From Deltaproteobacteria bacterium (lineage in GTDB: Bacteria > Desulfobacterota > Desulfobacteria > Desulfobacterales > Desulfobacteraceae), in NCBI GenBank assembly GCA_013151635.1, contig JAADHV010000070.1, forward strand, positions 1 to 64,000: a DNA stretch of 64,000 nucleotides, given 5' to 3'. The notes beneath the pieces were generated by a model that saw only the letters and a program-made list of their open reading frames with translations, was not told where the DNA came from and searched no databases. Of this stretch, positions 28,605 to 34,274 are shown one piece after another. The position numbers and the translations under genes were made by a program. Numbering within the stretch: the stretch's first letter is position 1; each line of letters begins with the position of its first letter.

Positions 28605-31439
28605 ATGTTAAAAAATTTTAGCTTGGCGAAAAAGATTACCGGTGGATTTGTCATTATTCTTATCTTGTTGATTGCTCTTGCATTTGTCGGCCGTTTCGGA
28701 TTAACCAGGGTAGTTGAAAAAATGGATTCTGCAAATCATTTCCAGCTTCTGGTTGATCATATATTAAAGGCCAGGCAAAACGAGAAAAAATTCATTCTTA
28801 CCAATGACCCTGATGCCGTGAGTGTGGTTAAAGATGAAATCAGATCATTAAAAAATCAGACCAAGAGGATATTAGATGATGCCAAATCAAAGGACATAAA
28901 GAAACAGGCAGTCGAAATTATTAAAAAATCAGACACATATGGTAAGGCATTTAATGATTATGTGGCTTTTGCCGGTAAAAAAGATACTCTTATGAGTGAT
29001 ATGAATCATAAAGCCAGCCTTGCGCTTGAAATAACGGCTAAAATCCGTGATGAACAAAAAGCGAAATACAATCAATTAAGGGATGAAAGTGAAACAAAAA
29101 TTTCAAAGATGAGACTCAGAGTGAGCCTTGCCGGTAAAATCCATGATGCGTTTTTAAATGCAAAAGGATACAGGATGGTATTGGCAGAGTCAAATGAGCG
29201 TAATATCTCAATATATGAACAATGGAAAGGGAATCACAATAATTTAAAAATGGCTTCAGACCAGATTAAACCACTGCTGGTTGAAGAAAATTCGAAAAAG
29301 AGCCTTCAAGAACTTCTTTTAAGGCAGAAAGAATGCATGGATAAAGCCAATCTGTTTTTTGATGACAAAACCGATGACAATAACATCGCCGTCATAAAAG
29401 CTGTAAGAGAGTTTAGGAGGACTATTATTAGTTTCCAGCAGGAAATGCAGGAACAACTCGAGTTTTACGTTGAAGATGTCCAGACCTTTTCAGGGCAGAT
29501 GATGGAGCTTTCTTCAGGTGCGGACCAGATTGCAAAAATTCTCTTAAACACACGAATTCTGGAAAAAGATTTTATCAATACGGAAGACGATAAATTATTT
29601 AAGAAAATCATCCAAAACATTTAGTCCATAAAAAAGGTCATAAAAGAAGTCAAAGAGAATATAGATGATGAGAATAAAACAAAACCCCTGGATGGAATCC
29701 ATGAATCGGTTAAAAATTACCTTGGCTCATTTAAAAGTTATGCAAGTTTGATGAAAGGCCAGCAGACTGCCAAAGATGCCATGGAATCAAATGCAGCAAG
29801 CATTCAGAAGATATGTTTAAAAGCAAAAGATTTCCAGCGCACACAGATGCTGGCCCAGATTACCAAATCAACTGCTTTTATTACAATTGTAAGCCTTTGT
29901 GCGGTGATTTTCGGGATTTTAATCGCATTGCTTTTAATAAGGATTATTATTACTCCTATCAAGACAGTTGTCAGAGCATTAAAAGATATCTCCGAAGGAG
30001 AGGGGGATTTAACCCAGAGGATAGATATTGATACAAAAGATGAAATCGGGGAGCTTGCAAAATGTTTTAATGCTTTTATCGCCAGGTTAAATAATATTAT
30101 CGTAGAAATCGGCAGCAATTCCGAGACCGTGACCGCTTCATCAGGAGAGCTCTTATCTGTTTCAGAGCAAATGGCAGAAGATGCGGATGATCTGTCAGAA
30201 AAATCAAATTCCGTTGCAGCGGCAGCAGAAGAAATGAGTTCTAGCATGAACTCAGTTGCTGCTGCAAGTGAACAGGCTTCCACCAATCTTGGGATAGTTG
30301 CAAATGCAGCAGGGCAAATGAAACTGACCCTGGGGGAAGTCGCTTCCAATTGTGAAAAGGCAAGAGGAGTTTCAGATAATGCAGAAAAGAAAGTCAAAAA
30401 AGCCTCGGAAAGAGTGAAGTTGCTCGGCGCCTCTGCACGGGATATTAATAAAGTCACCGAAGTGATTACAGATATTGCGGAACAAACCAACCTGTTGGCT
30501 CTGAATGCGACCATTGAGGCTGCAAGGGCAGGAGAAGCAGGAAAAGGATTTGCAGTTGTGGCAAGTGAAATCAAAGGTCTGGCAAGCCAGACAGCAGAAG
30601 CTACCCTGGATATTAAAGATAAAATCAAGGGTATTCAAAATTCAACAGATGATACGGTAAAGGATGTTGAACAGATAAGACAAGTTATTTCGCAAGTGAC
30701 CGAAATTGTTTCTGCAATTGCCGCAGCCATTGAAGAACAGTCTGTTTCCGCCACGGAAGTCGCTGAAAATATTGAGCAGGCATCCACGGGCATAGGCGAT
30801 GTAAATGAGAATGTTGTCCAGAGTTCCCAAGTATCTTCAGAGATATCAGAAGATATTTCAAAGGTTAATGGAGTGGCTGTGGATATGACAGGAAGAAGCG
30901 GGCAGATGAAAAAGAGCGCCCGGGAATTATCCGATCTTTCTTCAAAGCTAAGGGATATGATTGGAGTATTCAAGGTTTCTATTGATGATGCTGATATTGA
31001 TTCTGGTTCTGATTTAAAACAAGGGGATACCCCACAACTTATGCCGTGGTCAAAAAAACTTGTCACCGGAATTAACCAGATTGATGAGCAGCACAAAGAA
31101 CTGGTCAAAATGATCAATGAACTTCACCTGGCCATGAAAATGAAAAAAGGTGCTAAAGAATCCGGACAGATTTTGGAAAGGCTGGCAGATTATACTGTGT
31201 ACCATTTCGGGCATGAGGAAAAATTGTTTGAAGAACATGTGTATCCTGGAAGAATGGACCACAAAGATATTCATGATAAGCTTGTTGCAAAGGTAATTGG
31301 ATTTAAAAATGATTTTGAACAAGGCAGGGCTGCGCTTTCCATGGATTTAATGGTCTTTCTTACAGACTGGCTGAAAACCCATATTATGAAAACAGACATG
31401 CAATATGTTTCTTTTTTAAAAGAAAAAGGGGTGAACTGA
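28605..31439 (+). pseudogene. Methyl-accepting chemotaxis protein with C-terminal hemerythrin, interrupted by in-frame TAG
   Basis: The frame encodes one receptor of about 944 residues but has a TAG at 29622-29624, near residue 340. Reading continues in the same frame without loss after the TAG ([17 protein letters not shown]). The first part has a membrane helix and a long helical sensor. After the TAG come the rest of the sensor, a second membrane helix, HAMP, and the signalling tip [19 protein letters not shown]. The final 130 residues are a bacteriohemerythrin, with His/Glu ligands in [27 protein letters not shown] and [10 protein letters not shown]. Hemerythrin implies O2 sensing, as in DcrH-type receptors. 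Either the gene is nonsense-mutated, or the TAG is read through; TAG is used as an ordinary stop by oleA, glgB and the biotin carboxylase here. Confidence 0.8.
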
Positions 31440-31449
31440 AATTTTTTTA

Positions 31450-31478
31450 TTGACAATAATTAAAATGGCCTGTATTTT
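31450..31478 (+). promoter_or_regulatory. Sigma-70-type promoter of the phe leader
   Basis: TTGACA at 31450-31455 and TATTTT at 31473-31478 are separated by 17 bases. RNA would start near 31485, about 20 bases before the leader-peptide ATG at 31505. The match to consensus is good at -35 and fair at -10. Confidence 0.65.
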
Positions 31479-31504
31479 GCTCAAAATAAGTCAGGTAAAA
31501 AATA

Positions 31505-31582
31505 ATGAATAAAACAAAACACATAAGCATATTTAATTTTGGACGCTTCTTTTTCTTTTTTAGAAGCGTTCATCCGGTGTGA
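31505..31582 (+). CDS. Phenylalanine-rich leader peptide of an attenuator
   Basis: This 25-residue open frame has seven phenylalanines, five of them consecutive (codons 15-19, at 31547-31561). It ends with TGA at 31580-31582. It lies between a good promoter and a strong terminator hairpin, upstream of a gene for phenylalanine synthesis. This is the layout of the E. coli pheL leader: stalling at Phe codons when Phe-tRNA is short controls transcription downstream. It is too short to be found by length alone, but the codon run plus context make it convincing. The ribosome site is weak (CAGGTA). Confidence 0.8.
   Translation: MNKTKHISIFNFGRFFFFFRSVHPV
31543..31577 (+). promoter_or_regulatory. 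Attenuator pause hairpin and antiterminator 5' arm
   Basis: ACGCTTCT (31543-31550) pairs perfectly with AGAAGCGT (31562-31569), forming a hairpin over the Phe codon run. The bases GTTCATCCGG at 31568-31577 can instead pair with CCGGGTGGAC at 31610-31619: ten pairs, two of them G-U. That structure removes the 3' part of the terminator's left arm. A ribosome stalled on the Phe codons would mask the first arm and favour this antiterminator. Confidence 0.7.
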
Positions 31583-31604
31583 CGTTTTATTTTTTAGTTA
31601 AATA

Positions 31605-31642
31605 AAGCCCCGGGTGGACATCATGCCACCCGGGGCTTTTTT
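31605..31642 (+). terminator. Attenuator terminator
   Basis: AAGCCCCGGGTGG (31605-31617) and CCACCCGGGGCTT (31626-31638) form a perfect 13-base-pair stem with an eight-base loop, followed by a T run to 31642. It lies 82 bases before aroF-pheA. Its left arm is shared with the antiterminator. Confidence 0.85.
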
Positions 31643-31648
31643 GGTTTC

Positions 31649-31681
31649 AGGCCCGGGGAATAATTTTTCCGGGCCTTTTTT
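31649..31681 (+). terminator. Second hairpin terminator in the phe leader
   Basis: AGGCCCGG (31649-31656) pairs with CCGGGCCT (31669-31676), followed by a T run to about 31681. It sits 43 bases before the gene start. It may reinforce the attenuator or be a second stop; no separate antiterminator arm for it was found. Confidence 0.65.
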
Positions 31682-31724
31682 ATTTCAGGGTAATTTTTAA
31701 ATTTTTTAACCAGGGAGAAAATCA

Positions 31725-33593
31725 ATGATTCTTGTACTTGAAAGCAAGATTAGTCAAAAGCAGAAGGATAAGATTAAAAACAGGCTTTCTGATGAGGGGT
31801 GCATTATACGTGAAATCATGGATGCAGGCAGAAATCTAATCGGGATCATAGGCAAACCTGAGAAAAGCCTGGATGAGCTTAAGCAAATGGATGGTGTCGC
31901 AGATGCTGTTCCTATCAAAACTTCCCATAAACTTGTGAGCCGGGAGTTTAAATCAGAAGATACCAGGGTTAAGATCGGTAATGTTGTGGTGGGTGGAGAC
32001 AGGATTGTCATTGTGGCAGGCCCTTGTGCCGTAGAAAGCCATGACCAGGCCATGTCCATTGCAAAAGAGGTGAAAAAGTATGGCGCGGTTCTTTTCCGGG
32101 GGGGCGCATACAAACCCAGGTCTTCACCATACTCTTTCCAGGGTCTGGAAGAAGAAGGTCTTAAAATTCTTGCCGATGTCAGGGAAAAGACAGGGCTCGG
32201 GGTAGTCACGGAAATCACATCGCCTTCTCAGGCAGATCTTATGATGAAATATGTTGATGTGGTCCAGGTAGGAGCTCGTAACATGCAGAATTTCGAGCTT
32301 TTAAAATGCGTCGGCCGCATGGAAAAACCGGTTGTGTTGAAAAGGGGGCTTGCCTCTACAATCCAGGAATGGCTGATGTCTGCTGAATACATTATGGCAG
32401 GGGGAAACAATAATGTTATCCTTTGTGAGAGAGGAATCAGAACCTTTGAACCATATACAAGAAATACCCTTGATTTATCAGCTATCCCGGTTTTGAAAAA
32501 ATTGACCCACCTGCCAATTATCATTGATCCAAGCCATGCTACAGGGATCAGGGAAAAAGTGAGCCCCATGGCACGGGCTGCCGTGGCTGCAGGGGCGGAT
32601 GCCCTAATGATCGAGGTCCATAATAACCCTGACAAGGCATTGTCGGACGGGCCCCAAAGCCTTTACCCGGAACAGTTCGGCCAGTTGGTCAGGGATATCT
32701 ATGTTATTGCGCCTGTAGTTGGCAAGCAGCTTGATTTTGATTATTTGAAAAAATCGGAAATCATTAACAATATAAAAGACGAAAATTCAAAAACAGCAGC
32801 TTTTATTGGCGAATACGGTGCCTACAGCCATAAGGCAAGTCTTGGTTATTTTGGTGAGGAAATAACTCCTTGTCCCATGAAAACATTTAAGGATATTTTC
32901 CAGGCTGTTCAAACCGGAATCTGCCAGTATGGGGTTATTCCACTGGAAAATTCCCTTTCCGGGTCAATCCATGAGAATTTTGACCTTCTCCAGGAATATG
33001 ACCTGAAAATCATAGGAGAAATAACCATAAGGGTAAAACATGCTTTGATTGCCCATGAAAATGTTTTAAAAAAGGATATTAAAAAAATTCTTGCTCCGCC
33101 ACCTGCGTTTTCCCAATGTAAAAACTACCTGGATCAATATCCTGAAATCGAACTTGTCCCTGTAAAGGCAACATCAAGTGCGGTAAGGCAGGTAAAAGAT
33201 TCAAATGATAAACATACTGCGGCCATAGGATCAACCATGGCGGCAGGGATCTTTAAGATGAATATTTTACAAGAGTCCATAGAAGACAATCCAAGAAATT
33301 ATACAAGGTTTGCCATTATAGCAAAAGAAATTAAAGGACATAAAAAGGTGGATAAAACATCTATTATTTTTTCCACAGGAAATAAACCGGGCGCTTTATT
33401 TGAAGTAATGAAAGTATTTTCCGAGCATAAGATAAACCTTGTTAAGTTAGAATCACGTCCCATGCTTGGAAAACCTTGGGAATACATGTTCTATGCAGAT
33501 CTTGAAGCTGATATTAAAGCTCCTGAACTTGCACCTGCCATGGAAAAATTAATTGAGAAATCGGAAAATTTCAGAATTATAGGAAGATATTAA
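31725..33593 (+). CDS. DAHP synthase fused to prephenate dehydratase with ACT domain
   Basis: The 622-residue protein combines the first step of the shikimate pathway with the committed phenylalanine step. Residues 1-80 resemble the ferredoxin-like regulatory domain of Thermotoga-type DAHP synthase. Residues 80-335 are the synthase barrel, with VAGPCAVESHDQA, LFRGGAYKPR and IDPSHATG. From about residue 350 comes prephenate dehydratase (GEYGAYSHKA, VIPLENSLSGSIHENFD, NYTRFAII with the catalytic Thr-Arg-Phe). An ACT domain with LESRPMLGKPWEY closes the protein and should bind Phe. No chorismate mutase domain is present. GGGAG precedes the ATG. The gene sits alone behind the phe attenuator. Confidence 0.88.
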   Translation: MILVLESKISQKQKDKIKNRLSDEGCIIREIMDAGRNLIGIIGKPEKSLDELKQMDGVADAVPIKTSHKLVSREFKSEDTRVKIGNVVVGGDRIVIVAGPCAVESHDQAMSIAKEVKKYGAVLFRGGAYKPRSSPYSFQGLEEEGLKILADVREKTGLGVVTEITSPSQADLMMKYVDVVQVGARNMQNFELLKCVGRMEKPVVLKRGLASTIQEWLMSAEYIMAGGNNNVILCERGIRTFEPYTRNTLDLSAIPVLKKLTHLPIIIDPSHATGIREKVSPMARAAVAAGADALMIEVHNNPDKALSDGPQSLYPEQFGQLVRDIYVIAPVVGKQLDFDYLKKSEIINNIKDENSKTAAFIGEYGAYSHKASLGYFGEEITPCPMKTFKDIFQAVQTGICQYGVIPLENSLSGSIHENFDLLQEYDLKIIGEITIRVKHALIAHENVLKKDIKKILAPPPAFSQCKNYLDQYPEIELVPVKATSSAVRQVKDSNDKHTAAIGSTMAAGIFKMNILQESIEDNPRNYTRFAIIAKEIKGHKKVDKTSIIFSTGNKPGALFEVMKVFSEHKINLVKLESRPMLGKPWEYMFYADLEADIKAPELAPAMEKLIEKSENFRIIGRY

Positions 33594-33599
33594 AAGCCT

Positions 33600-34274
33600 T
33601 TAAAAATCTTCCAGGGCAAAGGTATCGGAGCGCAACTTTTTCATGACACCGGCAAGAGTGGATTTGCTTTGCCGGGCATACGCTTCAATTGCCTGCGTTG
33701 CCTTTTCCCTGTCTTTGGAAATAAGGGCCTGATAGATTTTTATATGCTGCTGCAATAATTCATTCCATAAATTCGGGGCAAGATTTAAGGCATGCCGGTA
33801 TTTTATTGTCAAGTCGCTCAGGTTCTTGCACACACGAAAAAGAGATCTGCTTCTGGCAGCCTTATAGATTATGGTATGAAATGCGATATCAAGCTCGGTT
33901 ATTTTAAAATCCTCCCCTGATTTTATAGCAGCCTTGATCTGTTCTAAATTATCGTCCAGGCTTTTTAACTCTTCAACAGTGATGTTCTCAATTGCCTTTT
34001 GTATGGCGAGCTGTTCGATTTCCATCCTGGTTGTAAATAAATCCTGGATTTCATTATCTGACATATCTTCCACCATATAACCGGCTTTAGGAATTGCAGT
34101 TATAAGTTTTTCCTGTGCAAGCTTCTGCAAGGCTTCCCTTACCGGTGTCCTGCTGACATTCAGCGATTTGGCCACGGCAGTTTCCGTGATCCTTGTGCCC
34201 CCTGGAAGCTTGCCTGATACTATGTCAAAGCGAAGAGACTTGTAAACTTTTGTTTTTAAAGATTCTGTTTTCAT
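33600..34274 (-). CDS. GntR family (FCD/FadR-type) transcriptional regulator
   Basis: The 224-residue protein has an N-terminal winged helix with the typical GntR pattern (LPGGTRITETAVAKSLNVS and TPVREALQKL). It is followed by an all-helical FCD ligand domain containing ELDIAFHTIIYKAA with metal-type His. AGGAGG precedes the ATG. It is convergent with aroF-pheA, with six bases between the stops. A candidate self-operator lies upstream at 34307-34316. Ligand and targets are unknown; a link to aromatic metabolism is not shown. Confidence 0.87.
   Translation of the reverse strand: MKTESLKTKVYKSLRFDIVSGKLPGGTRITETAVAKSLNVSRTPVREALQKLAQEKLITAIPKAGYMVEDMSDNEIQDLFTTRMEIEQLAIQKAIENITVEELKSLDDNLEQIKAAIKSGEDFKITELDIAFHTIIYKAARSRSLFRVCKNLSDLTIKYRHALNLAPNLWNELLQQHIKIYQALISKDREKATQAIEAYARQSKSTLAGVMKKLRSDTFALEDF

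Follow-up and report, generated by a model that had tools for sequence, protein, structure and literature searches.

Leader-peptide attenuation is the textbook system of enteric bacteria. In enterobacteria, pheL precedes pheA; it is a short Phe-rich leader with competing 2:3 and 3:4 stems, and its target is phenylalanine biosynthesis. The following accounts come from portions of the papers cited. The his attenuator of enteric bacteria has been described as two sets of stems, AB, CD, and EF versus BC and DE (PMC10989985). For Desulfovibrio vulgaris, a putative attenuator of the aroA'-aroB'-aroQ-pheA-aroF-tyrA-trp supraoperon was named in 2005 from the Merino site (PMC1173090, Table 7). Tandem attenuators are known from the Salmonella mgtCBR virulence operon, whose long leader contains two short ORFs (PMC3641672). 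A survey that relied on the four amino acid leader families in Rfam at the time suggested that such leaders arose in gamma-proteobacteria, with few transfers (PMC3766115). We searched titles and the beginnings of abstracts in the open-access literature, a scope that most subscription journals fall outside, and found no Phe attenuator or tandem-terminator relay in Desulfobacteria; a term search of PMC2965389 returned no Desulfobacteria Phe attenuator.

Here we analyzed a stretch of 64,000 nucleotides of DNA from a sulfate-reducing member of the Desulfobacteria, which we call the window. Upstream of an aroF-pheA fusion gene it carries what is, in our judgment, likely a six-segment relay attenuator resembling that of his. 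It would sense charged tRNA-Phe through a run of Phe codons, and its first hairpin, H1, would also act as a terminator in some lineages, including that of the window.

The leader and its target gene

The gene in question had been annotated initially as a fused aroF-pheA, and a Pfam search agrees. DAHP_snth_FXD, DAHP_synth_1, PDT, and ACT are found in one polypeptide, which is a DAHP synthase with an N-terminal ferredoxin-like domain joined to a prephenate dehydratase and an ACT domain. The protein is closest to Desulfobacula records, with 90% at best, and the genome of the window (G000) measures 4.21 Mb. Convergent with the fusion gene, a gene for a GntR/FCD-type regulator lies at positions 33600-34274 on the minus strand. 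Upstream of the leader, at positions 29748-31439, there is a gene for a chemoreceptor that has HAMP and MCP signal domains and, at its C terminus, a hemerythrin domain. Since the chemoreceptor gene adjoins aroF-pheA in just 8 of the 63 loci with at least 1,000 upstream bases, the Phe leader element travels with aroF-pheA.

Table 1. Features of the leader and its target gene, in window positions
Feature	Position	Strand	Details	Basis
Promoter-like site	31450..31478	+	TTGACA-17-TATTTT	10/12 matches
Weak AGG 5' of leader ORF	31493-31495			By eye
Leader peptide ORF	31505..31582	+	MNKTKHISIFNFGRFFFFFRSVHPV; 25 codons plus TGA	Sequence read
Hairpin 1:2, presumed pause hairpin	31540..31572	+	11 pairs, 31540-31550 with 31562-31572	Folding and alignment
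Phe codons, presumed stall site	31547..31561	+	Five consecutive	Sequence read
Segment 2	31568..31577	+	5' half of antiterminator 2:3	
Stop codon of leader ORF	31580-31582	+		
Antiterminator 2:3	31568-31577 with 31610-31619		Ten pairs, including two G-U	
Hairpin H1 (segments 3:4)	31604..31639	+	14 pairs; terminator-like, with U run here	
Portion of segment 3 engaged in 2:3	31610-31619			
Segment 4	31626-31639			
Portion of segment 4 able to pair with segment 5	31629..31638	+	Nine pairs around one G.G mismatch	
Portion of segment 5 able to pair with segment 4	31649..31658	+		
Hairpin H2 (segments 5:6)	31649..31681	+	12 pairs, 31649-31676, plus U run	
aroF-pheA fusion gene	31725..33593	+	622 aa, one polypeptide	Pfam search

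Nearly all of the initial annotation of this leader stands. The promoter, the 25-codon ORF with five consecutive Phe codons, and the ten-pair antiterminator are all present as they had been described (Table 1); the peptide has seven Phe in total, five of them in the one run. The pause hairpin was placed at 31543-31569 and a 13-pair terminator at 31605-31638. Both are real hairpins, the latter with its U run, but each is the inner part of a longer helix. The region 31490-31690 folds at −77.7 kcal/mol versus a shuffle mean of −43.6 (z = −9.2). The search for terminator-like hairpins gave two, H1 and H2, both GC-rich and with U runs, versus a shuffle mean of 0.6. We rejected a chance structure, since none of the 200 shuffles folded as low and the same layout recurs in relatives. 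We also scanned 110 bases upstream of 59 aligned leaders, counting the window; one of the 60 leaders of the alignment had too little upstream sequence. The best promoter-like match has an exact TTGACA in 45 of the 59. The mean best score was 9.10 versus 8.12 for shuffled sequence, and 18 of the 59 leaders reached at least 10 of 12. From the sequence we infer the transcription start, translation of the leader, the order of folding, and the response to phenylalanine.

No Rfam family reached its gathering cut-off anywhere in the 64,000-nt window. The cis-regulatory family scoring highest on the leader was the trpB motif, RF04312 (31.7 bits, E = 0.011), below its cut-off of 59; His_leader, RF00514, scored 26 bits (E = 0.03) versus a cut-off of 49, and Phe_leader, RF01859, scored 17.8 bits (E = 1.8) versus a cut-off of 55. 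Membership in each of the three was therefore rejected. The leader had been called pheL-type, and this holds for the principle but not for the Rfam family.

Conservation and pairing across relatives

Scanning one genome per species, we obtained at least 564 protein relatives and took the best 80 of these. The gene start is covered in 78; L037 and L073 do not cover it and were dropped from the leader count. A Phe leader lies 5' of the gene in 71 of the 78 relatives, as judged by a first screen and by eye. The first screen covered 79 upstream regions, with the window counted, and 61 of them showed a Phe-rich leader; inspection of up to 700 bases in the other 18 regions added 11 Phe leaders. Among the 71, three (L019, L039, and L067) have lost the first codons of the leader at a contig end. 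Inspection of up to 700 bases upstream of the gene revealed no leader at L060, L070, L074, and L084; the upstream sequences of L060, L070, and L074 are alike. The upstream regions of L069 and L080 are cut by a contig end, with H1 and H2 still visible at L080, and at L041 part of the leader stretch reads N. L044 and L051 retain the leader and H1, without a recognizable H2. The alignment (A1), the covariance model built on it (R1), and all pairing statistics comprise 60 leaders, including the window; L044, which has no recognizable H2, and the 11 leaders found by eye were left out. The aligned leaders have 4 to 9 Phe in their last 18 residues, and over the whole predicted ORFs of the 60 they use TTT 304 times and TTC 105 times.

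Of the 18 loci excluded from R1, the model matched 13 in the correct orientation, including L044 and, in part, L080. It gave no match in L041, L060, L070, L074, and L084; L069 is outside this set. At an E value of 1e-10 or below, R1 matched 162 of 389 genomes of the class, some of which are its training set. At the same threshold it matched 84 of the 201 genomes with completeness of 90% or more and contamination of 5% or less, and 56 of 148 genera. At 1e-4, matches were found in 56 of 395 genomes of the phylum, a set that overlaps with that of the class. At 0.01 the count for the class rises to 268 of 389; some of the weaker matches are leaders of other kinds, and some are clearly not leaders. 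Where R1 also gave weak matches to the opposite strand of a matched site, we attribute them to the hairpins, which are self-complementary.

We then considered whether the helices are maintained by compensatory change. Across the 60 leaders of A1, 91.8% of the cells in the terminator-state helices (1:2, 3:4, and 5:6) are paired. Changes on both sides occur in 18 of the 31 pairs of these helices, amounting to 134 cells versus 34.9 in shuffles that ignore the relatedness of the leaders (0/500). Helix 5:6 is paired in 97.2% of cells. Helix 1:2 is paired in 84.7%, with double changes in 6 of 9 pairs; in some rows, L057 and L064 for example, segment 1 is misaligned. Read by eye, L007 and L030 both have a C-to-T change in segment 1 that a G-to-A change in segment 2 compensates, and the peptide there carries Asn instead of Ser as a result. 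The antiterminator 2:3 is paired in 96.3% of cells; three of its pairs are doubly changed, a number that 14 of 500 shuffles reach. The initial annotation had staked its reading on conservation of the Phe run and the competing stems in relatives, and both are indeed conserved. Comparison of the loci shows the predicted leader, the predicted helices 1:2, 2:3, 3:4, and 5:6, and a locus-specific complementarity between segments 4 and 5. The locus has a short, apparently translatable ORF with a run of codons for the amino acid being produced, and its mutually exclusive antiterminator and terminator stems show covariation; these are features of a ribosome-mediated attenuator.

A relay to the second hairpin

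The two hairpins differ in their U runs. H2 is followed by at least 5 U of 8 in all 60 aligned leaders. After H1 the run varies, with at least 6 U of 8 in 31 leaders, 4 to 5 in 15, and at most 3 in 14; L057 and L062 are examples of loci that have no U run there. Because the U run of H2 is found in every leader, while 14 lack one after H1, we take H2 as the predicted constant terminator of the family, and H1 as a hairpin that is kept whether it would terminate or not. The initial annotation had noted a second terminator; it is present, as the constant terminator rather than an extra one. The H1 of the window, with its own U run, probably terminates too. In the 14 leaders with at most 3 U after H1, H2 is likely the only terminator, so Phe control would reach H2 only through the 4:5 pairing. 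On a tree of AroF-PheA with a midpoint root, the U-run label of H1 needs 9 changes (at least 6 U) or 5 (at most 3 U).

The proposed relay would work as follows. With ample phenylalanine, the ribosome would pass the Phe codons and arrive at the stop codon, covering segment 2. Segments 3:4 (H1) would then form, which would occupy segment 4 and allow 5:6 (H2) to form and terminate transcription. When phenylalanine is short, the ribosome would stall in the Phe run over segment 1, and segment 2 would stay free. This would let 2:3 form and release segment 4, which would pair with segment 5 ahead of the synthesis of segment 6. With 2:3 and 4:5 in place, neither terminator would form, and aroF-pheA would be transcribed.

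A ribosome shields about 14 bases downstream of its A site. By this measure, a ribosome at the stop codon, 31580-31582, would cover segment 2, 31568-31577. One on the first two or three Phe codons would cover segment 1 and leave segment 2 free, and one stalled on the last Phe codons would cover segment 2 partly. Mean energies favor 3:4 (−28.9) over 2:3 (−21.3) and 5:6 (−22.9) over 4:5 (−18.2). Since 3:4 with 5:6 beats 2:3 with 4:5 at equilibrium, the switch needs the early stem to form first, by kinetic trapping. The same order of events is held for other attenuators. We folded the leaders in stages with each earlier stem held fixed, so that trapping was imposed and not simulated. With segment 2 free, 2:3 formed with at least 6 pairs in 59 of the 60 loci and 4:5 with at least 5 pairs in 59, the exception being L047, and at least 5 pairs of 5:6 were kept in none of the 60. 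With segment 2 masked, 3:4 and 5:6 formed with at least 7 pairs in all 60.

The link on which the relay would depend is the pairing of segments 4 and 5. Across the 60 leaders, the 4:5 duplexes average −18.24 kcal/mol with their own partners versus −16.74 with permuted partners (0/5000). Were H2 a mere copy of H1, the mirror pairing 3:6 would be expected to be equally locus specific; it averages −16.26 kcal/mol versus −16.10 permuted (943/5000). When the leaders are thinned by protein identity, the 4:5 excess holds with 47 leaders (0/5000), 24 leaders (2/5000), and 8 leaders (59/5000), and by the same permutation test it is gone with 3 representatives (1636/5000). The 3:6 pairing shows no excess at any thinning step (2077, 2413, 3905, and 5000 of 5000). 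Against shuffled segments 5, the 4:5 duplex beats 95% of shuffles in 55 of 60 loci, versus 45 of 60 for the 3:6 control, and in 42 of 60 loci 4:5 is the stronger pairing of the two. In the window, the 4:5 duplex has −17.8 kcal/mol, which 1% of shuffled segments 5 equal; it includes the G.G mismatch, and the window alone of the 60 carries G in that column. On A1, 85.2% of the 4:5 cells are paired versus 82.5% in shuffles (0/500). Doubly changed cells are in excess (19 versus 11.1 shuffled, 2/500), but doubly changed pairs are not (4 versus 3.8, 363/500). At only 37 of 60 loci does segment 4 pair better with its own segment 5 than with swapped ones on average; by U class of H1 these are 8 of 14, 9 of 15, and 20 of 31. 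We regard the relay as probable, not proven, and 4:5 is its weakest link.

Could a simpler arrangement account for these leaders? The window would also fit a classical four-segment Phe attenuator (1:2, 2:3, and 3:4), since H1 by itself has the complete attenuator layout there; H2 would then be an independent, unregulated terminator that merely lowers expression. The lack of an excess of doubly changed 4:5 pairs speaks for such an arrangement. The 14 of 60 leaders that have H1 with at most 3 U argue against it, for their sole likely terminator, H2, would be left without control, as does the finding that 4:5 is locus specific and 3:6 is not. A four-segment model leaves the second terminator uncontrolled, and the 4:5 pairing would close this gap. 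We consider the four-segment arrangement unlikely.

Another possibility is that the leader acts on translation, on stability, or through Rho and not by intrinsic termination, in keeping with the missing U run after H1 in those 14 leaders. Such modes of action are quite improbable. The U run of H2 is there in 60 of 60, and the distance from H2 to the gene ranges from about 20 to about 200 bases; such variable spacing is easier to reconcile with termination than with masking of the ribosome site. The hairpins also lie 165 to 237 bases past the stop codon of the chemoreceptor gene and might be its terminators, with the Phe ORF as a by-product. A promoter-like site lies in between, 71 of 78 loci have the leader but only 8 of 63 the upstream gene, and both the leader ORF and 2:3 would be left unexplained. 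We rejected H1 and H2 as terminators of the chemoreceptor gene on the count of upstream genes, and this reading is scarcely credible.

Related leaders and known attenuators

R1 was also searched against 8 genomes, and we read 15 loci; ten were amino acid leaders, including two strong Phe leaders. The other five (L126, L131, L134, L137, and L139) were non-leaders, and L134 and L137 resemble tRNA and 5S rRNA genes. Weak R1 matches therefore provide no count of leaders. Gene names in this wider family, for which 19 loci were re-read in the right orientation, were all assigned by eye; L148 and L151, whose sequences were read out of register, revealed no leader. In the window's own genome, L125 (G000:C78:57831-57940) has a Tyr-rich leader, MNFCLTDRLYFYFEYYYNISLPVLR, before a 345-residue DAHP synthase, with one terminator-like hairpin seen; it is likely a Tyr attenuator. 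In other genomes of the class, Tyr leaders with two tandem hairpins each, judged by eye, precede DAHP synthase-like genes at L120 and L129 and, at L122 and L123, proteins of 265 to 266 residues taken for aroA'-type synthases. A Trp leader, MKTAINTYKNQNWWWYWHFTGVSPVLL, with two hairpins precedes a TrpE-like protein at L124 (G185:C1:2360668-2360802). Phe leaders lie before an ACT-like gene at L116/L152 and before separate DAHP synthase-like and AroQ-PheA-like genes at L121 and L154. At L130 and L138/L153 they lie before phenylacetate-CoA ligase-like genes, followed in L153 by an ACT-like protein and ABC-transporter-like genes. The ligase-like and ACT-like targets hint at a supply of phenylalanine from aryl acids rather than at breakdown.

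On balance, we give an even chance to the broader proposal that aromatic genes of Desulfobacteria, for Phe, Tyr, Trp, and phenylacetate-CoA ligases possibly salvaging aryl acids toward Phe, share one family of relay attenuators. The relay hairpin would have repeatedly gained or lost its terminator function, so that a few bases of a U run would change the number of terminators in series and the depth of repression. The natural series of leaders with one or two terminator-like hairpins, otherwise alike, lends itself to testing how terminators in series determine an attenuator's range and whether a his-type relay had more than one origin. The leaders also help to predict genes of Phe, Tyr, and Trp supply in uncultured sulfate reducers. 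The strong conservation of a Phe leader in Desulfobacteria suggests that the view of a gamma-proteobacterial origin reflects the models that were available.

The leaders of trp, phe, and his work on the same principle as the one proposed here. The Desulfobacteria leader shares with the phe attenuators of enterobacteria a short Phe-rich leader, the competition of 2:3 with 3:4, and a target in phenylalanine biosynthesis; it differs in its aroF-pheA fusion target, its second hairpin H2, and the 4:5 pairing. The initial annotation considered such a leader notable outside the enterobacteria, and it is less exceptional than that, since the D. vulgaris attenuator had already been named (PMC1173090). 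That case is alike in its aromatic amino acid genes, its host, a former delta-proteobacterium, and its predicted attenuation. It concerns a different operon, and the accessible portion of PMC1173090 describes no structure or leader for it. The mgtCBR leader, as far as it is covered in the accessible portion of PMC3641672, similarly combines leader ORFs with attenuators in tandem, but it serves a virulence operon, with no amino acid biosynthesis relay. In layout the leader resembles the his attenuator, which also has six segments, two alternative stem sets, and a last stem that is the terminator (PMC10989985, accessible portion). The alternative pairings B:C and D:E have their counterparts here in 2:3 and the less well supported 4:5. 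A last hairpin as sole terminator, as in his, would fit the 14 of 60 leaders with at most 3 U after H1 but not, by its sequence, the window. Unlike his, the family uses Phe codons in place of His codons, and H1 has at least 6 U of 8 in 31 of its 60 leaders. The mechanism is thus already known, and what this family adds is probably H2 as a constant terminator that is reached through the relay.
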